Source: Piscirickettsiaceae bacterium
GTDB lineage: Bacteria; Pseudomonadota; Gammaproteobacteria; Nitrosococcales; Methylophagaceae
Direction: 5' to 3'
Assembly (NCBI GenBank): GCA_013215805.1
Contig: JABSQM010000014.1
Location: 1 to 64,000, forward strand
Length of the DNA: 64,000 bases
Under the pieces are notes generated by a model. It had not been told where the DNA came from. It saw only the letters and a program-made list of their open reading frames with translations, and ran no database searches. A program made the position numbers and the translations under genes. Shown one piece after another: positions 10,788 to 50,830 of this stretch (position 1 is the first letter of the stretch; each line of letters starts with the position of its first letter).

Positions 10788-11264
10788 TTAACCCTTATAA
10801 ATAATAGCAACAATTTCATAATCAATAGGTCCACTGGGTGCTTGTACAATTGCGATATCATTAATTTCCTTGCCAATTATAGCTCTAGCGATAGGCGAAG
10901 ATATAGAGATTCGATGAAGCTTAACATCAGATTCATAATCACCTACAATTTGATAAGTAACCTTATCTTCATCTCCAATATTGAACAAATCAACCGTTAC
11001 TCCAAAAACCACGCGACCATCCCGGGGTAACATAGTCGGATCAATAATTTGAACATTTGATGATATGACTTCTAGTTCTTGAATACGTCCCTCGACGAAA
11101 CTCTGTTGTTCCTTCGCGGAATGATATTCAGAATTTTCCTTTAAATCACCATGTGCACGAGCTTCGGAAATTGCTACAACCACTTCAGAGCGTACAGTAA
11201 ACTTGAGATGTTGTAATTCATTTTTGAGCTTATTTAAGCCATGTAATGTCATCGGCACTGCCAT
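10788..11264 (-). CDS. greA: Transcription elongation factor GreA
   Basis: Rescues backtracked RNA polymerase by stimulating transcript cleavage. The 158-residue protein has the N-terminal coiled coil with the acidic tip in EARAHGDLKENSEYHSAKE (the Asp and Glu that reach the polymerase active site) and the C-terminal FKBP-like domain with SISSPIARAIIGKE. A GAGG element precedes the ATG. It lies 50 bases beyond carB on the same strand, as in other betaproteobacteria. Confidence 0.96.
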   Translation of the reverse strand: MAVPMTLHGLNKLKNELQHLKFTVRSEVVVAISEARAHGDLKENSEYHSAKEQQSFVEGRIQELEVISSNVQIIDPTMLPRDGRVVFGVTVDLFNIGDEDKVTYQIVGDYESDVKLHRISISSPIARAIIGKEINDIAIVQAPSGPIDYEIVAIIYKG

Positions 11265-20611: not shown

Positions 20612-21481
20612 TTATTGACCTAATCCATAGTAAAGCACTATCCCGGAAAATAATGCTGCGCCCACCCAATTATTGCTTGCAAAAGCCAGCAAACATCCTT
20701 CTGGATGTCTATTTTTTGTTAATTTATACTGATATGAAAAGAATATACAAGATACTAATACCCCAAAATAATATACAAAGCTCATATCCAACAAGATGCC
20801 TATCAATATCATCGATAAGAGAAAAAAGGCCTGTAATATACCGATTATGCAACGATCATTATGATTGAATAATATAGCCGTTGATTTTATTGTGATTAAT
20901 AAATCATCTTCACGATCAGACATTGCATAATAGGTGTCATATGACGTCACCCATAAAATATTAGCTAAGAATAACAGCCATGATACAGGTGAAAGTAATT
21001 GATTTTGACCTAAAAAAGCCATGAAAATAGCACAACTAAAGGTTATTCCCAAATGAAACTGAGGAAGGTAAGTATAACGTTTCACAAAAGGATAAGTCAC
21101 CGTCAAAAACAAAGCGATAAATGACATTAGAACAGTAATTTTATTCAAAATAAGAACTAGCATAAGGGAAAATAAAGCGAGGCTAGAAAAGGCAATTAAA
21201 ACATGATTAACCTTTAATGTACCCATAACTAAAGGCCGTTTTACTGTTCTAAAAACCGACCCATCGATATTTCGATCAACATAATCATTAATTGCACAAC
21301 CTGCTGAGCGCATCACAATAACACCTAAAATAAACACTATTAAAATACCTAAATCTGGCACACCATTTGCTGAAATCCATAAAGCAGATAAGGTAGGCCA
21401 CAACAATAGGAAGATACCGATAGGTTTATTTAAACGCATTAAATGCACATATGGCATTACATTGTGATCTATTAATCCCAC
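20612..21481 (-). CDS. ubiA: 4-hydroxybenzoate octaprenyltransferase UbiA
   Basis: Membrane prenyltransferase that attaches the polyprenyl tail to 4-hydroxybenzoate in ubiquinone synthesis. The 289-residue product is strongly hydrophobic with about eight helices. It keeps both Mg-diphosphate motifs, NDYVDRNID (residues 65-73, followed by GSVFRTVKRPL) and YDTYYAMSDREDD. The start is GTG, overlapping the ubiC stop by one base (TAGTG), and is supported by TTGGAG eight bases upstream. It makes the quinone used by the complex I encoded at the left end. Confidence 0.95.
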   Translation of the reverse strand: MGLIDHNVMPYVHLMRLNKPIGIFLLLWPTLSALWISANGVPDLGILIVFILGVIVMRSAGCAINDYVDRNIDGSVFRTVKRPLVMGTLKVNHVLIAFSSLALFSLMLVLILNKITVLMSFIALFLTVTYPFVKRYTYLPQFHLGITFSCAIFMAFLGQNQLLSPVSWLLFLANILWVTSYDTYYAMSDREDDLLITIKSTAILFNHNDRCIIGILQAFFLLSMILIGILLDMSFVYYFGVLVSCIFFSYQYKLTKNRHPEGCLLAFASNNWVGAALFSGIVLYYGLGQ

Positions 21482-22023
21482 TAATTACTCCAATCTATAA
21501 TTGGCAGGAATATTTCATTGACCAGTAATATTTTGCCGCTCAAATAAAAATGTGAGCGCCTAGCCCACAGTTCCTTCGGACGATAATTTTCTCCTAATAT
21601 CGCCATTTCATATAACTCGTTACCTAATTTCAGACAGGTGATTTCTATTGGTCCACGTTTCACTAATGCCTTGGTAAATAACAATTCACTCAGGGAGTTG
21701 TTACCTAAGTTACTAAAACGTTGTCTCATTGCCTGATACGTTGAAAGTGGGATGACCGTCCTAGCATATACGTTTGCTTCTTTACCATCCATCAGTCGCA
21801 CCTCACGCTGCATTGCTATTTGAGTCATCGGCACTCTCATGGATAGACATTCATCAGGTAACGGCCTCGTCCAATTATTCTTCAATAATTGCACTGAAAA
21901 ATTGTATTGATTTGATTTTTGCAATTTACACGTCAACGAACCTGCATCAGTCAACCAAGATGCAAGATATGCAGGCATCAAACGCCGCTGTGGCACGTAC
22001 CATTTAGTCCAATGCCTTATCAC
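21481..22023 (-). CDS. ubiC: Chorismate lyase UbiC
   Basis: Cleaves chorismate to 4-hydroxybenzoate and pyruvate, the first committed step of ubiquinone synthesis. The 180-residue product contains WLTDAGSLTCKL near the N-terminus, REVRLMDGKEANVYARTVIP in the centre and WARRSHFYLSGKILLVNEIFLP at the end, all UbiC-like, including the product-binding Arg and the C-terminal Glu. The start is GTG at 22023 with AGG seven bases upstream. It is coupled to ubiA through overlapping stop and start codons. Confidence 0.92.
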   Translation of the reverse strand: MIRHWTKWYVPQRRLMPAYLASWLTDAGSLTCKLQKSNQYNFSVQLLKNNWTRPLPDECLSMRVPMTQIAMQREVRLMDGKEANVYARTVIPLSTYQAMRQRFSNLGNNSLSELLFTKALVKRGPIEITCLKLGNELYEMAILGENYRPKELWARRSHFYLSGKILLVNEIFLPIIDWSN

Positions 22024-22679
22024 ATAATACCTATATGTATTTTATATGCATTTAAAATTAATTTAATCTCCAAATTTATTATCGCTATTGAAAACATCTG
22101 ATACACTTCAGTATGCTATTCAAAAAAGATATTATCGATGATTTAAACAGATACCTATTAATTATGACCTACATATCCATAACGTAAATAAAATTCAAAC
22201 TAACATTTGGAACAATTCATCATTGCGCCATAAAATGATGCATATACTTAGCCTCATATTAATCATGCCAATGATAACTACAATGCACATTGTATTTATT
22301 ATAAATTAAGGGTTATCATGAAGAAAGACCATCTCTAACTTGGCGCAAGTAGAAGAAAATAATCTAACAAATATCGAATTTATTGTACAAATATTATTCA
22401 CAAGCGCTCGAAAATATTTTTCTTGAATATTTTCAATCAATCTTAGGAACCCAATAAATCATATATTACTAATGACCCACCGCTTAAATTATAAGTAAAA
22501 CTAATTTTCAAGGATGTCAAATGTATTATTATTGATGGTATAAATTAAAAAATAAAGGTATTATCATTCTGATAATCAAGAAAATTATTGATTCAATTGA
22601 ACGATACCTTTAAATTTACAAATACGGTGCACATAGCGAATTATTCGTGCTAAATACCATCTATCAATCCATACGATGG
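22024..22679. other. Non-coding gap upstream of ubiC
   Basis: About 650 AT-rich bases with no gene seen on either strand. It probably includes the ubiC promoter and the degraded far end of the spoT relic. Confidence 0.4.
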
Positions 22680-24650
22680 TAAAACGTCAATTTAGATAGT
22701 TGCCGTCATATTCATCGAACGTATGGCATTATTAATGTTAACATCAAATCTTGATATCATTGCCACAATAGGTACCAAAAGCACCGCAATAATTTTTATT
22801 ACAAATCACAGTATTGGCTAAAACTCACTATCTACATCTGAAGACCACGATACATACAGTTGTTTTTCCGTTTATCACGCAGATTGAATGTTACTTTAAA
22901 ATCCGATTAATGAATAATAATACCACGGTATCCAATGATGAAGCAATTAATAATGGCCACCAGGAATAAATTGACAAAAACAAAAGATTAAATGCTATAC
23001 CTTCAATACTAGCTATCAATCAATACCTAATACTTCTGCTTTTTGATATCACATCACATATCAACATTCCGGCAATCGAAATATAGGACAATGTCCTGAA
23101 TCAATATAATCTAAAAATAGCCTAGGACTTATAAATGTGACTATTATAATGGATCATGGATACGTTGATGAGGAATATCCTTAGATTGAACAGAAAAGTC
23201 TTGTGATATTTATATGATAATAGTTTACTTAAAATGATCGCTTCTTTATCATGTAATATTTTAAATAATCACGAATATTTGAGCGTACTTTTGCAAGGAA
23301 TACAAAATTTAACCTTGCTAGATTGTAATAAGTTGAAGTAGATGTAATTATCCGAATTGACTGACAATTTTAGGCTGTATAATTAACGGTGCTAAATTCA
23401 TTATAAATACGGGCAATAATACAAGTATGACAAATATCAGGATATACGGTATAATCCAAATCTGCCGTAGTTACCCTCCAGGGTAAATGTAACTTTACCC
23501 TTAGGAAGTGAATGCATAAATTTTTCGGAAAATAGATCTATGCTGAAATTCTCTCAAAATCTAATTATATCACTAGAATCTTTGAATATCTCATGAACCT
23601 TGCAGACATTGTCTAGTCTGACGATACGCTTGATTACTACTTTAGACATTGACTGTCTTATAAAGCCAATAAGGCCACTACACCCCCGCCTCTGATATAT
23701 AATCCATATTACCAGCACTAATATATACTTCTATCCGCGGATAATAGAACTCAATAGGACCTTATGTAAGAATTAATGGCCATTGGCTATCGGAATAACG
23801 ATATAATATTTGAATTTATTATGTACTGGTTTATCTATTTTATGTGATAAATTCAACATAAGATAGCTGGCAGAAACATCATCTACTATAATTCTGCGCA
23901 CATGTACATCCATAACCTCTAAAAATGATGATCGCTCGTTCACCATTTTATCATGCAAATTATAGAGATTCTTTCACGACCTTCAACATCAGCACTAGCA
24001 ATCTTCAGTTACACCATATGCATCATGGATAAAGCGATATGATTAACAATTTTATCACGGAGTTAACACGAGCATTACGTATCATATCGGCTACACACGA
24101 TATCGGATATGACATCCCCACAATACTCTAATCCATATCACATCACATCCATCTTATAATTAGGCAATGAACGCATAAATATCAAGCGTTTAATAGGTAA
24201 TACGACGACACTTTACTGTATTCACATACAACAAAGTCCACACATGATGCAGTCAATCCGATAATTGTATGATTATCACTCAAATATCATGTTGCATCGC
24301 CAACATAATGATTCATTAATTCTCATCTTGTACATATTTACGTGTCCTAAAAACAGTTTGGGAAAATTCACCGATAATAATAACTACAAAACTGCTTCTC
24401 CAAAAAATGAGGAGGATAGCTCATTACCACTAATATCTGTATCCTCAATCACATCATGTAGTAGAATATCCATGATGCATCTATAATCCATATGCATGGC
24501 AGCTAAAAAATGATCCATAGCAAAAGCTATGTGTAATACACTCCTCACCCGAAGAAGAGTGACTATACTGCATGCACACGTTCTATATAGGTAAGCACAA
24601 CTGATATCATCAAACTAATCTAATTTCAGATAATCCGATATTGCAAAACA
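22680..24650 (-). pseudogene. spoT: Relic of (p)ppGpp synthetase/hydrolase SpoT (RelA/SpoT family)
   Basis: The gene expected after gmk-rpoZ is present only as a multiply interrupted copy of nearly full length. From upstream to downstream on the minus strand I read SGEECITHS (about 24526-24552; native SGEPYITHP), the HD-hydrolase motif ILLHDVIEDTD (24439-24468), a 61-codon open piece of the synthetase domain with EVMDVHVRRIIVDD and YYIVIPIANGH (23773-23958), the TGS-domain piece DLDYTVYPDICHTC (23394-23462), YRGIIIH-stop-SDFKV (22889-22930; native GKGLVIH..DC) and an ACT-like piece IIAVLLVPIVAMISRFDVNI (about 22715-22800). Stops and frame changes separate the pieces. The order and spacing of five domains make the identity secure. 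Confidence 0.92.
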
Positions 24651-24754
24651 TATCCCCTAAATTGACAGCCTAGCTTCTATTCTCATATAAACGCTAGCCC
24701 ATCGGAAACTGTTGGAGTTGCATTCTAAAATTTTATAATTACTGCTAGCAACTA

Positions 24755-24994
24755 CTAATCGGAGATGACGCTTTTCTCTACATTCTCGCACATATTGGCC
24801 TTATCCAAAATATTATGATTAACTAAACCTTTTGCGATTTCACGTAACGCTATCACGGTTGGTTTGTCATTGTTAATATCAACCATCGCATCAGCTCCCT
24901 TTGAAATCTCGCGGGCGCGTTTTGATGCAACCAAGACTAATTGAAATCTATTGTCCACATTCTCTAAACAATCTTCTACCGTTGTACGCGCCAT
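24755..24994 (-). CDS. rpoZ: RNA polymerase omega subunit RpoZ
   Basis: Small subunit that helps assemble the beta' subunit and forms part of a ppGpp-binding site in proteobacteria. I choose the ATG at 24994 ([13 protein letters not shown]), giving 79 residues in line with the family; the open frame extends 14 codons further up without conservation. The core [16 protein letters not shown] is typical. It follows gmk. Its usual neighbour spoT is a relic, so the ppGpp-related role of omega may no longer apply. Confidence 0.93.
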
Positions 24995-25057
24995 GATGAA
25001 AATATCCCAAAATAAATTTAAAAAAGTTAAACACATTCATGATGAATATCATAATAA

Positions 25058-25642
25058 TCAATATTGTTTGCAATTACAATCAAGTGAATGATCTTTAGAA
25101 GAAATAATGCCCTCTAACCGAGTTAATGCCAACCCAAAATCATCATTAATGATCAGATGATCAAATTCAATATAATGTGACATTTCATTCTCAGAATCCC
25201 GCATACGACACAAAATAGTTCTTTCATCATCCTGACAGCGGCCTTGCAAACGCTGTGCCAATGCAACTTTAGATGGAGGAAAAATGAAGATACTAGTGCA
25301 ATTAGGGTATGTATTTCTTATTTGTCCTGCACCTTGCCAGTCAATTTCTAGAATAATATCTCGGCCTTTATTCAACTGAGTGGTTATCATTCTTCTCGAA
25401 GTACCGTAAGAATTGCTAAATACTATCGCTGACTCTAAAAAATATCCTGATTTATACATGTACGCAAATTTTTCCTGACTGACAAAGAAATAATCTTTGC
25501 CATTGAGCTCCCCATCGCGTGCCAAACGTGTAGTATACGATACTGATACTTTTATTTGTTGCTGCTTAGCAACTAAAGCTTTTAATAAACTAGTTTTACC
25601 TGCACCAGAAGGTGCTGCAACAATAAATAAACTTCCACCCAT
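25058..25642 (-). CDS. gmk: Guanylate kinase Gmk
   Basis: Phosphorylates GMP to GDP. The P-loop APSGAGKTS lies near the N-terminus, followed by SVSYTTRLARDGELNGKDYFF, the GMP-binding region, and by EIDWQGAGQIR. By homology the start is the ATG at 25642 (MGGSLFIVAAPSG). The frame is open to a GTG at 25678, so a slightly longer product is possible, and the ribosome-binding evidence is inconclusive. The product is about 194 residues, slightly short of the usual 205. It leads the gmk-rpoZ-(spoT relic) unit. Confidence 0.94.
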   Translation of the reverse strand: MGGSLFIVAAPSGAGKTSLLKALVAKQQQIKVSVSYTTRLARDGELNGKDYFFVSQEKFAYMYKSGYFLESAIVFSNSYGTSRRMITTQLNKGRDIILEIDWQGAGQIRNTYPNCTSIFIFPPSKVALAQRLQGRCQDDERTILCRMRDSENEMSHYIEFDHLIINDDFGLALTRLEGIISSKDHSLDCNCKQY

Positions 25643-25678
25643 TCCTATAGATTCCATCCAATATTTCGAATTTAACAC

Positions 25679-27580
25679 CCCTTCAATTTAACCATAATCT
25701 TCCTTTGTATACCGGATACGAAGAGATTATCAATAACTAATAATGAACGGATCAAACTTCATAATCTAACTGACACATTAAAAATGTAAATACAATCAAC
25801 TGATCTTGCCATATGGTATAATATACCTCATACTGTCAATATATATAAATAAAAAGCCTCCTATCCTAATTACATATACCGTCTTTATGGACGGCAATGG
25901 ACCTTCAATTATTAATTAGCAAATAATCAGATGAGAAAGGCCATAAGAAATATAAAACATCATCCCTATGCAATAATAAATAATATCAGTATAATAAAAT
26001 TATTGGAAATTAGGGTATCATATTAAGCATCTGTGAAAAGGCTTATGTAAAATCAAGAATAGTAATAAATGAAGTATAAATAGTCAATATAAGAAAATAC
26101 AAACACGAAATTTTATGGATGACACAGGAGATATAAAAATAGCTTCAATGAAATTAAAATAGCCCCCACAAACGTATTTTTAAATTTATGCTTAATGCTC
26201 TAAGACTCACGGAGTATTTTCCAACATCATCTATTATACGGATATGTAGGTAATCTTATTTCACATATAGACGAGGCACTAAAATAAGCATAGCAACAGA
26301 ATTTGCTTGAACATAATTCGCACATAATACGATAAATATAACACTATCTCAACAATTTACTTAAACTTTTACACCACTACTGTTCTCATACATGATATAA
26401 AAATTGTATTCTCATAGAAAGCGCGCAATCATTGTAAGAGCCATACTTTATGGTCCCCATCAATCTCAAATGCCAATAGATGGAATAGTGCGGGTAATCA
26501 TATTGATATATCGCGAGAATAAATATATATTTGATCTGTCTAAATAGGAGTTTATGCCTAGGATATGTAAAGCCTGATAAGAAACTTATTGTCCCCAGAT
26601 TTCTCGTCTATCCCATATCCACATGATAGCAATTAATCAACACTCATCTAACAACAATACACCCCGATCTTAATTGATTTCATCTTAATACTAATAATGG
26701 ATATATTTGAACACTTATAATTTAATCTTAAATAACATGTAAATACATAAAGTTATTTAAATGATTATATTTTAAAATTACCTATCGCTATGAGTACTCT
26801 ACAGTCAACTTTATATATTACAATAAATATTCGTGCTATAGTAAAGCTATTCACCAAAAGTACAGGTATCGTTAGGATTATTCTAATAAGTAATGAATTA
26901 AGATATATCCACCAACATCTTAAGTAAGAAAAGGTATAATGATAGTATAAGTTGTTTCCAGATCAAAGATATATGATAAACTCATTTAATAGGTATACCT
27001 GATACAACATGCCTAAAAATTCTTGGAACATCATAATTAAGCATCAATATGAAAATATTTCAACCAATTGATAATCACAATTTATATTTTAGATAAGCAA
27101 CCATCTCACGTCTCTAACTTAAATTACGTATTTTTTAAACAAATATGAATAATATTCACTATAAATTCTAAGTATAATTTGGTGAATAAGATATTAAAGC
27201 AATAAACATAACAGATCATATAGTTACCAAGCAATTGTAGCATCAATATTTCTACCGATCATAATACATAAAATGTGAGATGGTACCAAATTGAAAAGAT
27301 AAATTTGGCAATGCAAGACCCAGCCAATAGCCATCAATTCTTGCATTTCAATAAAGAATAAATCGCAAAACAAAGATTCTCAATATCGCAACCATAAATA
27401 GTCTCATATTAAGACATACAGAGAAAATTAATTACCTATTATTCCATAAAGATAATATTTAGATACTAATGGTTATAAAGTATCTTTTTAGCTCTATCTC
27501 AACTAGGGATCAGGTTAGCACTATTTTTTGTATTTCTATTTGCTACAATTATAATTTACCATTCACCAAGGCAAATTATA
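25679..27580. other. 1.9 kb non-coding gap between gmk and serC
   Basis: Divergent intergenic region with no open gene. Relatives often carry yicC, a phosphatase gene and rph upstream of gmk, and gyrA upstream of serC. I could not recognise any of these with confidence. On the minus strand near 26590-26640 a fragment faintly resembles RNase PH. An AAGG element at about 27570 serves serC. Confidence 0.4.
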
Positions 27581-47026: not shown

Positions 47027-48299
47027 TTATATATATAAGGATATAAGCTAATATAATATTTAATATATTATATACTAATATCTATGAAATTAAATAATTT
47101 GCTAAAAATTTAACATCTTAACATAAATACTCCACAGTAATCATCAATACTAGCGCTAACCTTTAATATAGGACGACCACAAAATAATTATTAATCAATT
47201 ATCCAAAATCCAACTCCTTATTAGGATGAAAAAAAATATCATGTAACACAGCATAACAAATTGATCATATGTAATGTGTAGGGTTTAATATCCTGCCATC
47301 TTTATAGAAAATAGTATAATAGAATACTTAAATATCAATTTGGATTTAAAGTGTCCTTATTAAAGTTTCATTATTATACTAACCTAAAAACATATAACTA
47401 TTGAAACCAGACAAATTATCAAAGATTAACAATATTGATTCATAATGTATGACGAGATTTAAGATCTTGACTTTAGGCCATTAAAAAATTTATATAAATA
47501 AATTATTTATCACTGCTGAATATAAAATTATAATTAATCGTACATATGCTACAAAATAAAAAATGATAAATCATATTCTGATGATCTTGCATACTCACAT
47601 ATTAAAATAAAATACAATTAAATAACTAAAAATGAAAAATTATTGAACTTTAAGGCCGGACTAGATATATCCATATAATCGACCATCAGTACATACCGCA
47701 TAATATTTAATAATTGGTACATCATAACTTAAGACAACTATCCATTAATAACAAGTAGTAATACTTTATTAAATAGATTTAAATATTAAACTTAATAGTT
47801 TTTATTTAAATCATTCATGTATTAGCAGATCTAATAAAACATATAATTAATAATCTAAACAATAAAGGTCAGCATATAGACGTAAATTGAAAGCTTAAAA
47901 TATATATTAAAAAAAACCGCCACATTAAAATCAACAAAACATTAAGAGGAAAAACCTGATTATATAATCTACCAAGCAGAAAAAATAGACCAATTAAGAT
48001 AATATAAACCAAGAAAAGCAAAAAAATATAAGACAAGTGTGAAAAAAGAAACGAAATACGCAAAACCCTGAATGTTCCTCCGTTAGCAATGAATGTAATT
48101 ATCGTAAAATTAGTTGTATGTCTAATGACAAAGAGCTTAATTTTGATGAACAAAAAATGAAATAGTTGACCATAAAAGGAGAGGATTTATGTTTCTCAAA
48201 CTCCAGTAGCAATACAGCTTAGACAATTACTTAAGCAGTAAAAAGCTTTAAAAAGATGAATTAATATTTTACATTTAATAATCTAAATGATATTCTGGA
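47027..48299. other. Non-coding gap upstream of hemL and of the hsd relics
   Basis: About 1.3 kb. From about 47850 the plus strand becomes strikingly purine-rich, consistent with a decayed lysine-rich gene such as the N-terminal part of hsdM or another hsd gene. I could not recognise motifs before 48300. Confidence 0.35.
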
Positions 48300-49000
48300 A
48301 AACAAATAACAAAGGACTAAAATTGAAAAATCTAGTAACATTTAAAAAATTATGTTTTAAAATCATTGTGTGAAGATAAATAAAATGTTAATGAAATCAT
48401 GATGCTGTGAGATATATAAACATCTATATTATAGAGAAAATTAGAAATGAATATGATTTTACACAAAAATATACGTAGCAGAATGCTACAAACAGATAAT
48501 CTCACAAATAAAAATTATTTATTGCCCAATAACCAAGTGAAAAATTTGATGTAATAGTTACTGACATGCCTTTTATCAAAAATAACTAAAAATACAACAT
48601 AAATGGCAGAGCCGAAATAAAAACGATATCTCAACCCTTTGTTAACATCTAATTGCAAAGGACATTGGAGACTATACTCTTATTCTGCGCTAACTTAAAA
48701 CCTCACAAGAATGATAAAATGGCTTCAGTTATACCGAAGGATCTTTTTATTTAGAAAATATATTGCTAATGTTTGCAAATCATCATTGTTAAAAACAAAC
48801 CACAAAATATTATATATTTACTAAGGTGTTTTCTCAACATATAAAGGGATAAAAAACAGATATCCTTTATTTTTTCGATGTCCATAAAACAGATAATCAA
48901 AGCAATTATAAATTTGTTAAAGCTCAAAATATCAGCATTACCCCTGACAATCACAAAAAATAAAAGATGACAATGACCTCAAAGAATAGAAAGATCCAAT
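48300..49000 (+). pseudogene. hsdM: Relic of type I restriction-modification DNA methyltransferase HsdM
   Basis: N6-adenine methyltransferase subunit of a type I restriction system. Plus-strand fragments follow family order and spacing. MNMILHKNIRSRM (from 48447) matches the MN..LHGI helix. KFDVIVTDMPFIKNN (48543-48587) matches catalytic motif IV, KFDVIVTNPPF, with the asparagine changed to Asp-Met. KTDILYFFDVHKTDNQ (48853-48900) matches GVKT.ILYF, about 100 codons later as in intact enzymes. TPDNHKK, a stop, then DDNDLKE (48939-48985) matches TLDNHR...NDL. Stops and frame changes make a functional product impossible. Confidence 0.85.
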
Positions 49001-49059
49001 GATAAAAAATAAATACACTAAGGTTAAAAGGCAATATGCTTAAGATTGATTTTTAAAAT

Positions 49060-49600
49060 TATGAGTATATAAAAGGTTATAATAATAATTTTCATTTAGT
49101 CAGATCGAAATATAGGAGCCAATAGCCTTATCTTATGTTTCAAAAATTAAAGGATATTAATCTGGAAATAAAAATAGTATTGAGACTGCAAAATATAAAG
49201 CTCGCAGAATGAAATATATTTCAAATGGTTATCTTAATATTAAAAAAAATTAAGTATATAAATCTTGATTAGATAAAACAAATTTTTCTTCAAAAGCGAT
49301 ATTGTATCTAGTCATACCAATATCTGCTTAATATAACAAAAACAGCTACCTCTACCGCAAAACCATCATTATACTAAATCAAGATATAACTATGCTAGAA
49401 TGGCTTTTATTAGTGATTAAAAGTGAGATTTAATTAATGTGCAAAAATAGCGTACATTAATAAAAAATTTAAGTCAAGTAAAATTAAACAATTATAAATT
49501 CCATTACCTTTAATTCAAGGGCAACAAGAATAGTTAATACAATGAAATAAAAAGAAAAATCAAAGATGATGAACAATTTATAAATAAGAAAAAAAGAAGA
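49060..49600 (+). pseudogene. hsdS: Relic of type I restriction specificity subunit HsdS (fragment)
   Basis: HsdS recognises the target sequence and scaffolds HsdM and HsdR. Downstream of the hsdM relic on the same strand, 49468-49560 reads KFKSSKIKQL, a stop, IPLPLIQGQQE, a stop, LIQ. This is the conserved HsdS repeat motif of the form S.IKQL.IPLPPL.EQQ.IV..I. Only this motif is clear; the target-recognition domains are not legible and the borders are rough. The position after hsdM supports the call. Confidence 0.72.
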
Positions 49601-50830
49601 CAAGCTTAAAAATCATGAAAGCAAGCTAATCAATGGCTGATGAGTTAGTTGCAATATGCTTATTAACGGAGCTCCCAAAGACTTCATGATGATTTCACAA
49701 AACAAAGGCTGTATATCCATTACTTCTAATTATAACGATGAGCAAATTAGTTCATATAAATAGCAAATACTTAAGGCACAAAAAGTAACAAGCGCCATTA
49801 AGCGATCTTTTAACCGACTTCCAAATTCCTCTAGATCATTTGTGCGAACATTTATCTGCCCTTCCTTACACATTTTTTTATTACTATAATACAATGTATC
49901 GTGATACAGCTTCATTTTTATCAGTCATTCATCAGGTACATATTTATCTGTTCCAGCCTCGACAGCAATCTTAATATTGTCTCTTAATGAGAGTCTTAAT
50001 TACTTAATTTTTAGTATTTACAAAAACTATTAACAATGATATTGCTCTTCCCTTTAGCTGCTCAAAATAGGAGTTTGAGTTTTTGTTGATCTGACTTGAA
50101 TATTTTTGATCTTTTTGACTTTATATTTATTTATTTTTACACCACAATAAATTCAGTTAAGTGCAATTACATCACAAAGATAGGTTATATATTCATCAAA
50201 CAGACCTTAAATGTACTTAGATATTCTGCAGACCAGTTCATAAACAACTCTCCATTGTCTTTCTAATTATTTAACTGCAACTATATTTTTAAAGATAGAG
50301 AAAAATAAAATAGCATAAAATAAATTTCTGAAAATCTATTGAGGATCCATGAAAAACTGTATCAGCTAGAGGATATAATTAATGGCCAAAATCAGGCACA
50401 AGAACAACCTTTAAAATCTGAAACCTTACATAAAGATAAAAAATTTTAATAGCATGGACATTTTTAGATTTCAATATCCATTCAAAAATATTTCGTGTAA
50501 AAATATTGATCATCCCAATATTTATGATTAAATTTCTCAATTGTAAATTTTTGTTTTATTCATAGCAAATGAAAATTAATTTTTTGTAATATGAATACAT
50601 GAGAAGAGAAATTATCCAATTAAATCATATACCATGAAGGTGATAATCTTGATCCTACCCAACTGTCCGCAAAATTATTTGAAATAGGGATTCCACGTCC
50701 TGATAATAGCCAGTAGTGGATATAACTATATCTACTATAGCATACATGAAATAAAATGAAGTTGCACCCGAATAAAAAACCTTTTATCCTTAGAATATAA
50801 ATCTTCCATAAATTAACAAGGACAAGAGGT
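49601..50830. other. Non-coding gap between hsd relics and pcm
   Basis: About 1.2 kb without a recognisable gene. It could contain the rest of hsdS or a remnant of hsdR, but I found no motif. An AAGGACAAGAGG ribosome-binding stretch lies at the right edge for pcm. Confidence 0.35.

Follow-up and report, generated by a model that had tools for sequence, protein, structure and literature searches.

The window analyzed here (the whole stretch of 64,000 nucleotides, to which all nucleotide positions refer) harbors a spoT/rel pseudogene that is, in all likelihood (we put the probability at about 0.9), the dead ortholog of the one gene that encodes a bifunctional ppGpp synthetase/hydrolase in the Methylophagaceae, decaying in its ancestral place in a lineage that would have no stringent response left. 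The remnant was delineated by a frameshift-aware local protein-to-DNA alignment that allows stops, with the intact 720-aa SpoT of a genome of the same genus (G001, locus L032) as the reference, and runs on the minus strand from position 24724 to 22588. The alignment spans residues 2-720 of the reference, with 339 identical residues among 697 aligned codons and a score of 1108, compared to scores of 34-41 for 10 shuffles of the same DNA and 35 for the opposite strand. It is interrupted by 15 in-frame stops and 27 frameshifts, in addition to which 4 residues are deleted and 1 is inserted, and a TAG (24725-24727) stands in the place of the former start codon, so that the pseudogene as a whole occupies 22588-24727. 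Thus, the near full-length decayed spoT beside gmk-rpoZ that had been proposed in a preliminary description of this DNA, at 22680-24650, is borne out by an alignment with 42 lesions and turns out to be slightly longer.

All four domains that the preliminary description had discerned are legible in the order expected of it, namely, HD, synthetase, TGS and ACT, their limits being the Pfam boundaries of the intact G001 protein transferred via the alignment. The HD_4 (ppGpp hydrolase) remnant corresponds to residues 45-194 (approximately 24150-24596), the RelA_SpoT synthetase remnant to residues 254-363 (23653-23982), the TGS remnant to residues 408-467 (23345-23520) and the ACT remnant to residues 640-717 (22599-22832), all on the minus strand. 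Independently of the alignment, a Pfam search of the X-masked read-through frame recovers RelA_SpoT above the cut-off (E = 1.7e-8); HD_4 is found in the same frame below the cut-off (E = 3e-4), and fragments of both domains also surface in the whole-genome HMM searches. Every domain is interrupted repeatedly, there is no single open frame with intact catalytic domains and the start codon is lost, so the gene fails as a functional long RSH.

The position of the remnant is that of the ortholog. The order gmk-rpoZ-spoT-ridA-recG-ubiC-ubiA is common to the Methylophagaceae loci that contain this block, including those of the two congeners G001 and G002, and gmk-rpoZ-spoT is the order in E. coli as well. 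In the window, gmk (25058-25678) and rpoZ, which encodes the omega subunit (24755-24997), were identified on one side of the remnant by alignment to G001; on the other side, relatives' gene order and alignment identify ubiC (21481-22023), which bounds the syntenic block downstream, and ubiA (20612-21481). All four genes are intact and lie on the minus strand. The conserved family block is shortened here in that ridA and recG are gone between spoT and ubiC; their place is taken by a non-coding gap (22024-22587), in which a search for ridA and recG remnants by alignment yielded scores at chance level, and the same was the outcome for yicC, rph and rdgB, the genes beyond gmk in G001 and G002, in the gap at 25679-27580. 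Elsewhere in the window, 3.8 kb between a hemL-like and a pcm-like gene (47027-50830) are devoid of a convincing gene, with 0 Pfam matches in six read-through frames of this 47.0-50.8 kb gap.

So could the alarmone still be produced by some other enzyme? Genome-wide, this question was addressed by family profile searches and the inspection of a few stretches. A loose six-frame search of the assembly with the synthetase profile PF04607, which produces matches in 11 of 14 control genomes, retrieves the remnant only and no other RelA/SpoT synthetase domain, and the HD_4 search of the whole genome yields only fragments of the same remnant and no other hydrolase. An intact rel/spoT elsewhere, the obvious threat to the functional conclusion, thus fails to turn up in the assembly, as does a gene for a small alarmone synthetase. 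The premise that there is a single RSH gene to lose also holds for the family, with one PF04607 place in 52 of the 54 Methylophagaceae genomes that have a match. Furthermore, Ppx/GppA, present in all 7 relatives tested, was not found in the genome to which the window belongs. One could still imagine that the stringent response is maintained by an RSH hidden in an assembly gap, by a highly divergent synthetase or by an alarmone supplied by a host, given that the assembly consists of 27 contigs, that short synthetases can diverge and that eukaryotic plastids produce ppGpp. Against these possibilities stand the loose search just described, the completeness estimate of 100% and the concomitant disappearance of Ppx/GppA, so that we consider this alternative improbable. 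We infer, in agreement with the preliminary description and given that no substitute RSH gene is detectable in the assembly, that (p)ppGpp is no longer synthesized and that the organism lacks a stringent response.

Another conceivable alternative is that expression of a fragment of the gene continues to yield something functional, such as a short synthetase peptide. The longest lesion-free run indeed falls within the synthetase domain (residues 256-323); however, these 67 residues fall short of the Pfam synthetase core, of which they cover roughly two thirds, and come without the hydrolase, not one domain is wholly open, and a synthetase without a hydrolase is expected to be harmful, all of which makes this scenario highly improbable.

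The pseudogene call itself was weighed against read error using the genes on both sides of the remnant. When gmk, rpoZ, ubiC and ubiA are compared to their G001 counterparts, there are 0 stops and 0 frameshifts over 729 codons, in contrast to the 42 lesions counted over the 697 aligned spoT codons (Fisher p = 5e-14). Given flanks free of lesions, the breaks in spoT are not read errors, and the notion that the organism itself has an intact spoT, the frame changes being artifacts of sequencing or assembly such as are often seen in long-read drafts of AT-rich DNA, can be dismissed almost outright, considering also that 15 of the 42 lesions are substitutions to stops and that residue identity to G001 is down to 49%, compared to 89% between the SpoT proteins of G001 and G002. 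By codon position, the remnant is 62/76/49% identical to G001, compared to 73-80/84-92/48-54% for the neighboring genes; between the spoT genes of G001 and G002, the identity is 89/96/53%. Judging from these sequence comparisons, SpoT is normally more conserved than its neighbors and is less conserved than they are in the window genome, and the codon signature that remains fits selection on spoT after the split from G001, followed by release.

The decay of a dead spoT ortholog, then, has to be considered against the background of the genome in which it occurs. This genome, that of a member of the Methylophagaceae, comprises 1.149 Mb in 27 contigs, with the completeness estimated at 100%, compared to 2.1 and 2.4 Mb in the two congeners; 56% of the window lies in open reading frames of 100 aa or more, versus 84-97% of the relatives' stretches, and the GC content is 33.7% in the window versus 42-43% in the genus. 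Size, coding density and GC content, taken together, point to genome erosion in progress, and these same three features suggest that the lineage is probably host-restricted. Within the family, PF04607 matches were detected in 54 of 57 genomes, the broken one included, and the three genomes without a match are 69-85% complete. Among the genomes at least 90% complete, all 36 have a match, and only that of the window genome is weak and broken by several stops; since all 35 others carry the synthetase domain, the loss is lineage-specific. In a wider sample spread over 370 Gammaproteobacteria, with 318 good genomes, 5 of the 318 lack any PF04607 match. Three of these are genomes of 0.3-0.4 Mb from one family that have no DksA either; the other two, of 1.5 and 2.0 Mb, may reflect assembly gaps.

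The proteins through which ppGpp acts present a different picture. The DksA gene, the search for which had been suggested along with the preliminary description, was found intact: it encodes 140 aa from the first plausible start and has the same two neighboring genes as in G001. The omega subunit is retained as had been claimed, with rpoZ intact and the N-terminal MAR motif kept, albeit with a C-terminus about 10 residues shorter than that of G001. A gene at 10788-11264 we take, from its sequence, to be GreA-like. DksA keeps all of its site-2 and coiled-coil-tip residues, namely, R91, L95, K98, R129 and K139 as well as D71, D74 and A76 at the tip, and the beta' subunit keeps N680 and K681 of ppGpp site 2 and K615, I619, D622 and Y626 of site 1 (residue roles according to PMC7676912, PMC6488371). 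With DksA intact and Ppx/GppA lost, the receptor side survives and the alarmone-metabolizing side is gone. There are precedents: in Buchnera, DksA persists in the absence of both relA and spoT (PMC3571970), and Chlamydia retains it without a (p)ppGpp synthetase (PMC10995303).

One contact of site 1 has changed. The RpoC of the window genome (L154, G000:C12:109500-117500) has a histidine where E. coli beta' has R417, a position occupied by arginine in 29 of the 29 family genomes compared. In the same stretch of RpoC, 18 of 600 family-invariant positions are changed in this genome, and the chance of at least one change among the 8-9 ppGpp contacts is about 0.22-0.24; because of this 3% background, we treat R417H as a lead only, suggestive of site-1 decay but not evidence of it. 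Among 23 readable sequences from RSH-bearing Gammaproteobacteria (L203, in the wrong reading frame, is left out), position 417 is R in 19, K in 2 and H in 2. In the three tiny genomes of 0.3-0.4 Mb that lack RSH, the residue is C (G228, L190), C (G334, L192) and K (G079, L215), possibly part of a wider pattern of site-1 erosion; the two doubtful RSH-null genomes (1.5 and 2.0 Mb) have R. The RpoC of G228, G334 and G079 is also changed at 619 or 626. A tentative and, on present evidence, rather unlikely possibility is that, once the alarmone was lost, site 1 began to erode whereas site 2 and DksA are still under selection. If true, those roles of omega and DksA that depend on the alarmone would be separated, in this lineage, from those that do not.

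In a genome reduced to 1.15 Mb, spoT has decayed at the ancestral gmk-rpoZ-spoT position, and the synthetase and hydrolase activities would have been lost at once because both resided on one gene; given such a joint loss, ppGpp would not have accumulated to toxic levels and thereby exposed the loss to counterselection. Probable host restriction, with a buffered nutrient supply, would complete this scenario. DksA would now work without the alarmone, as in Buchnera and Chlamydia, and together with omega probably persists for alarmone-independent work, that is, transcription elongation, replication-transcription conflicts and RNA polymerase assembly. This would be an independent case, from a marine methylotroph family, of bacteria dispensing with (p)ppGpp, with the gene caught while still readable and comparable to other lost genes, and with close relatives that keep SpoT providing a before-and-after pair in which one could see which parts of the ppGpp response (DksA, omega, polymerase sites) stay under selection.

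The loss of RSH in host-restricted bacteria has been established since at least 2011 (PMC3153485), and several known systems resemble the present one in part. In Rickettsia, split or degraded spoT is likewise found in a host-restricted bacterium; however, there are many spoT copies, some of them in a mobile-element cluster (PMC2694212), unlike the single long SpoT that decayed in its ancestral place here. Chlamydia trachomatis similarly has no (p)ppGpp synthetase and keeps DksA, and no spoT remnant is described there, as far as the available part of the report goes (PMC10995303), but it belongs to another phylum, which either lost the long RSH or never had it (PMC3153485). Paulinella was considered as a parallel and rejected, given that an RSH gene is described as retained in the chromatophore (PMC9450145). 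A literature search for a named reduced symbiont among the Methylophagaceae produced only the gill symbiont of Idas modiolaeformis (PMC10199937), which is animal-associated but has a genome of 2.17 Mb, belongs to the GTDB genus GCA-002733105 and may represent a different lineage. A further parallel is provided by the obligate endosymbionts Buchnera, Wigglesworthia, Baumannia, Blochmannia, Wolbachia and Anaplasma, which likewise have reduced genomes without a RelA/SpoT homolog (PMC3153485). In contrast to these, the genome described here, that of a 1.15 Mb relative of methylotrophs in a family whose other good-quality genomes all keep the gene, retains a full-length legible spoT remnant in the original operon.
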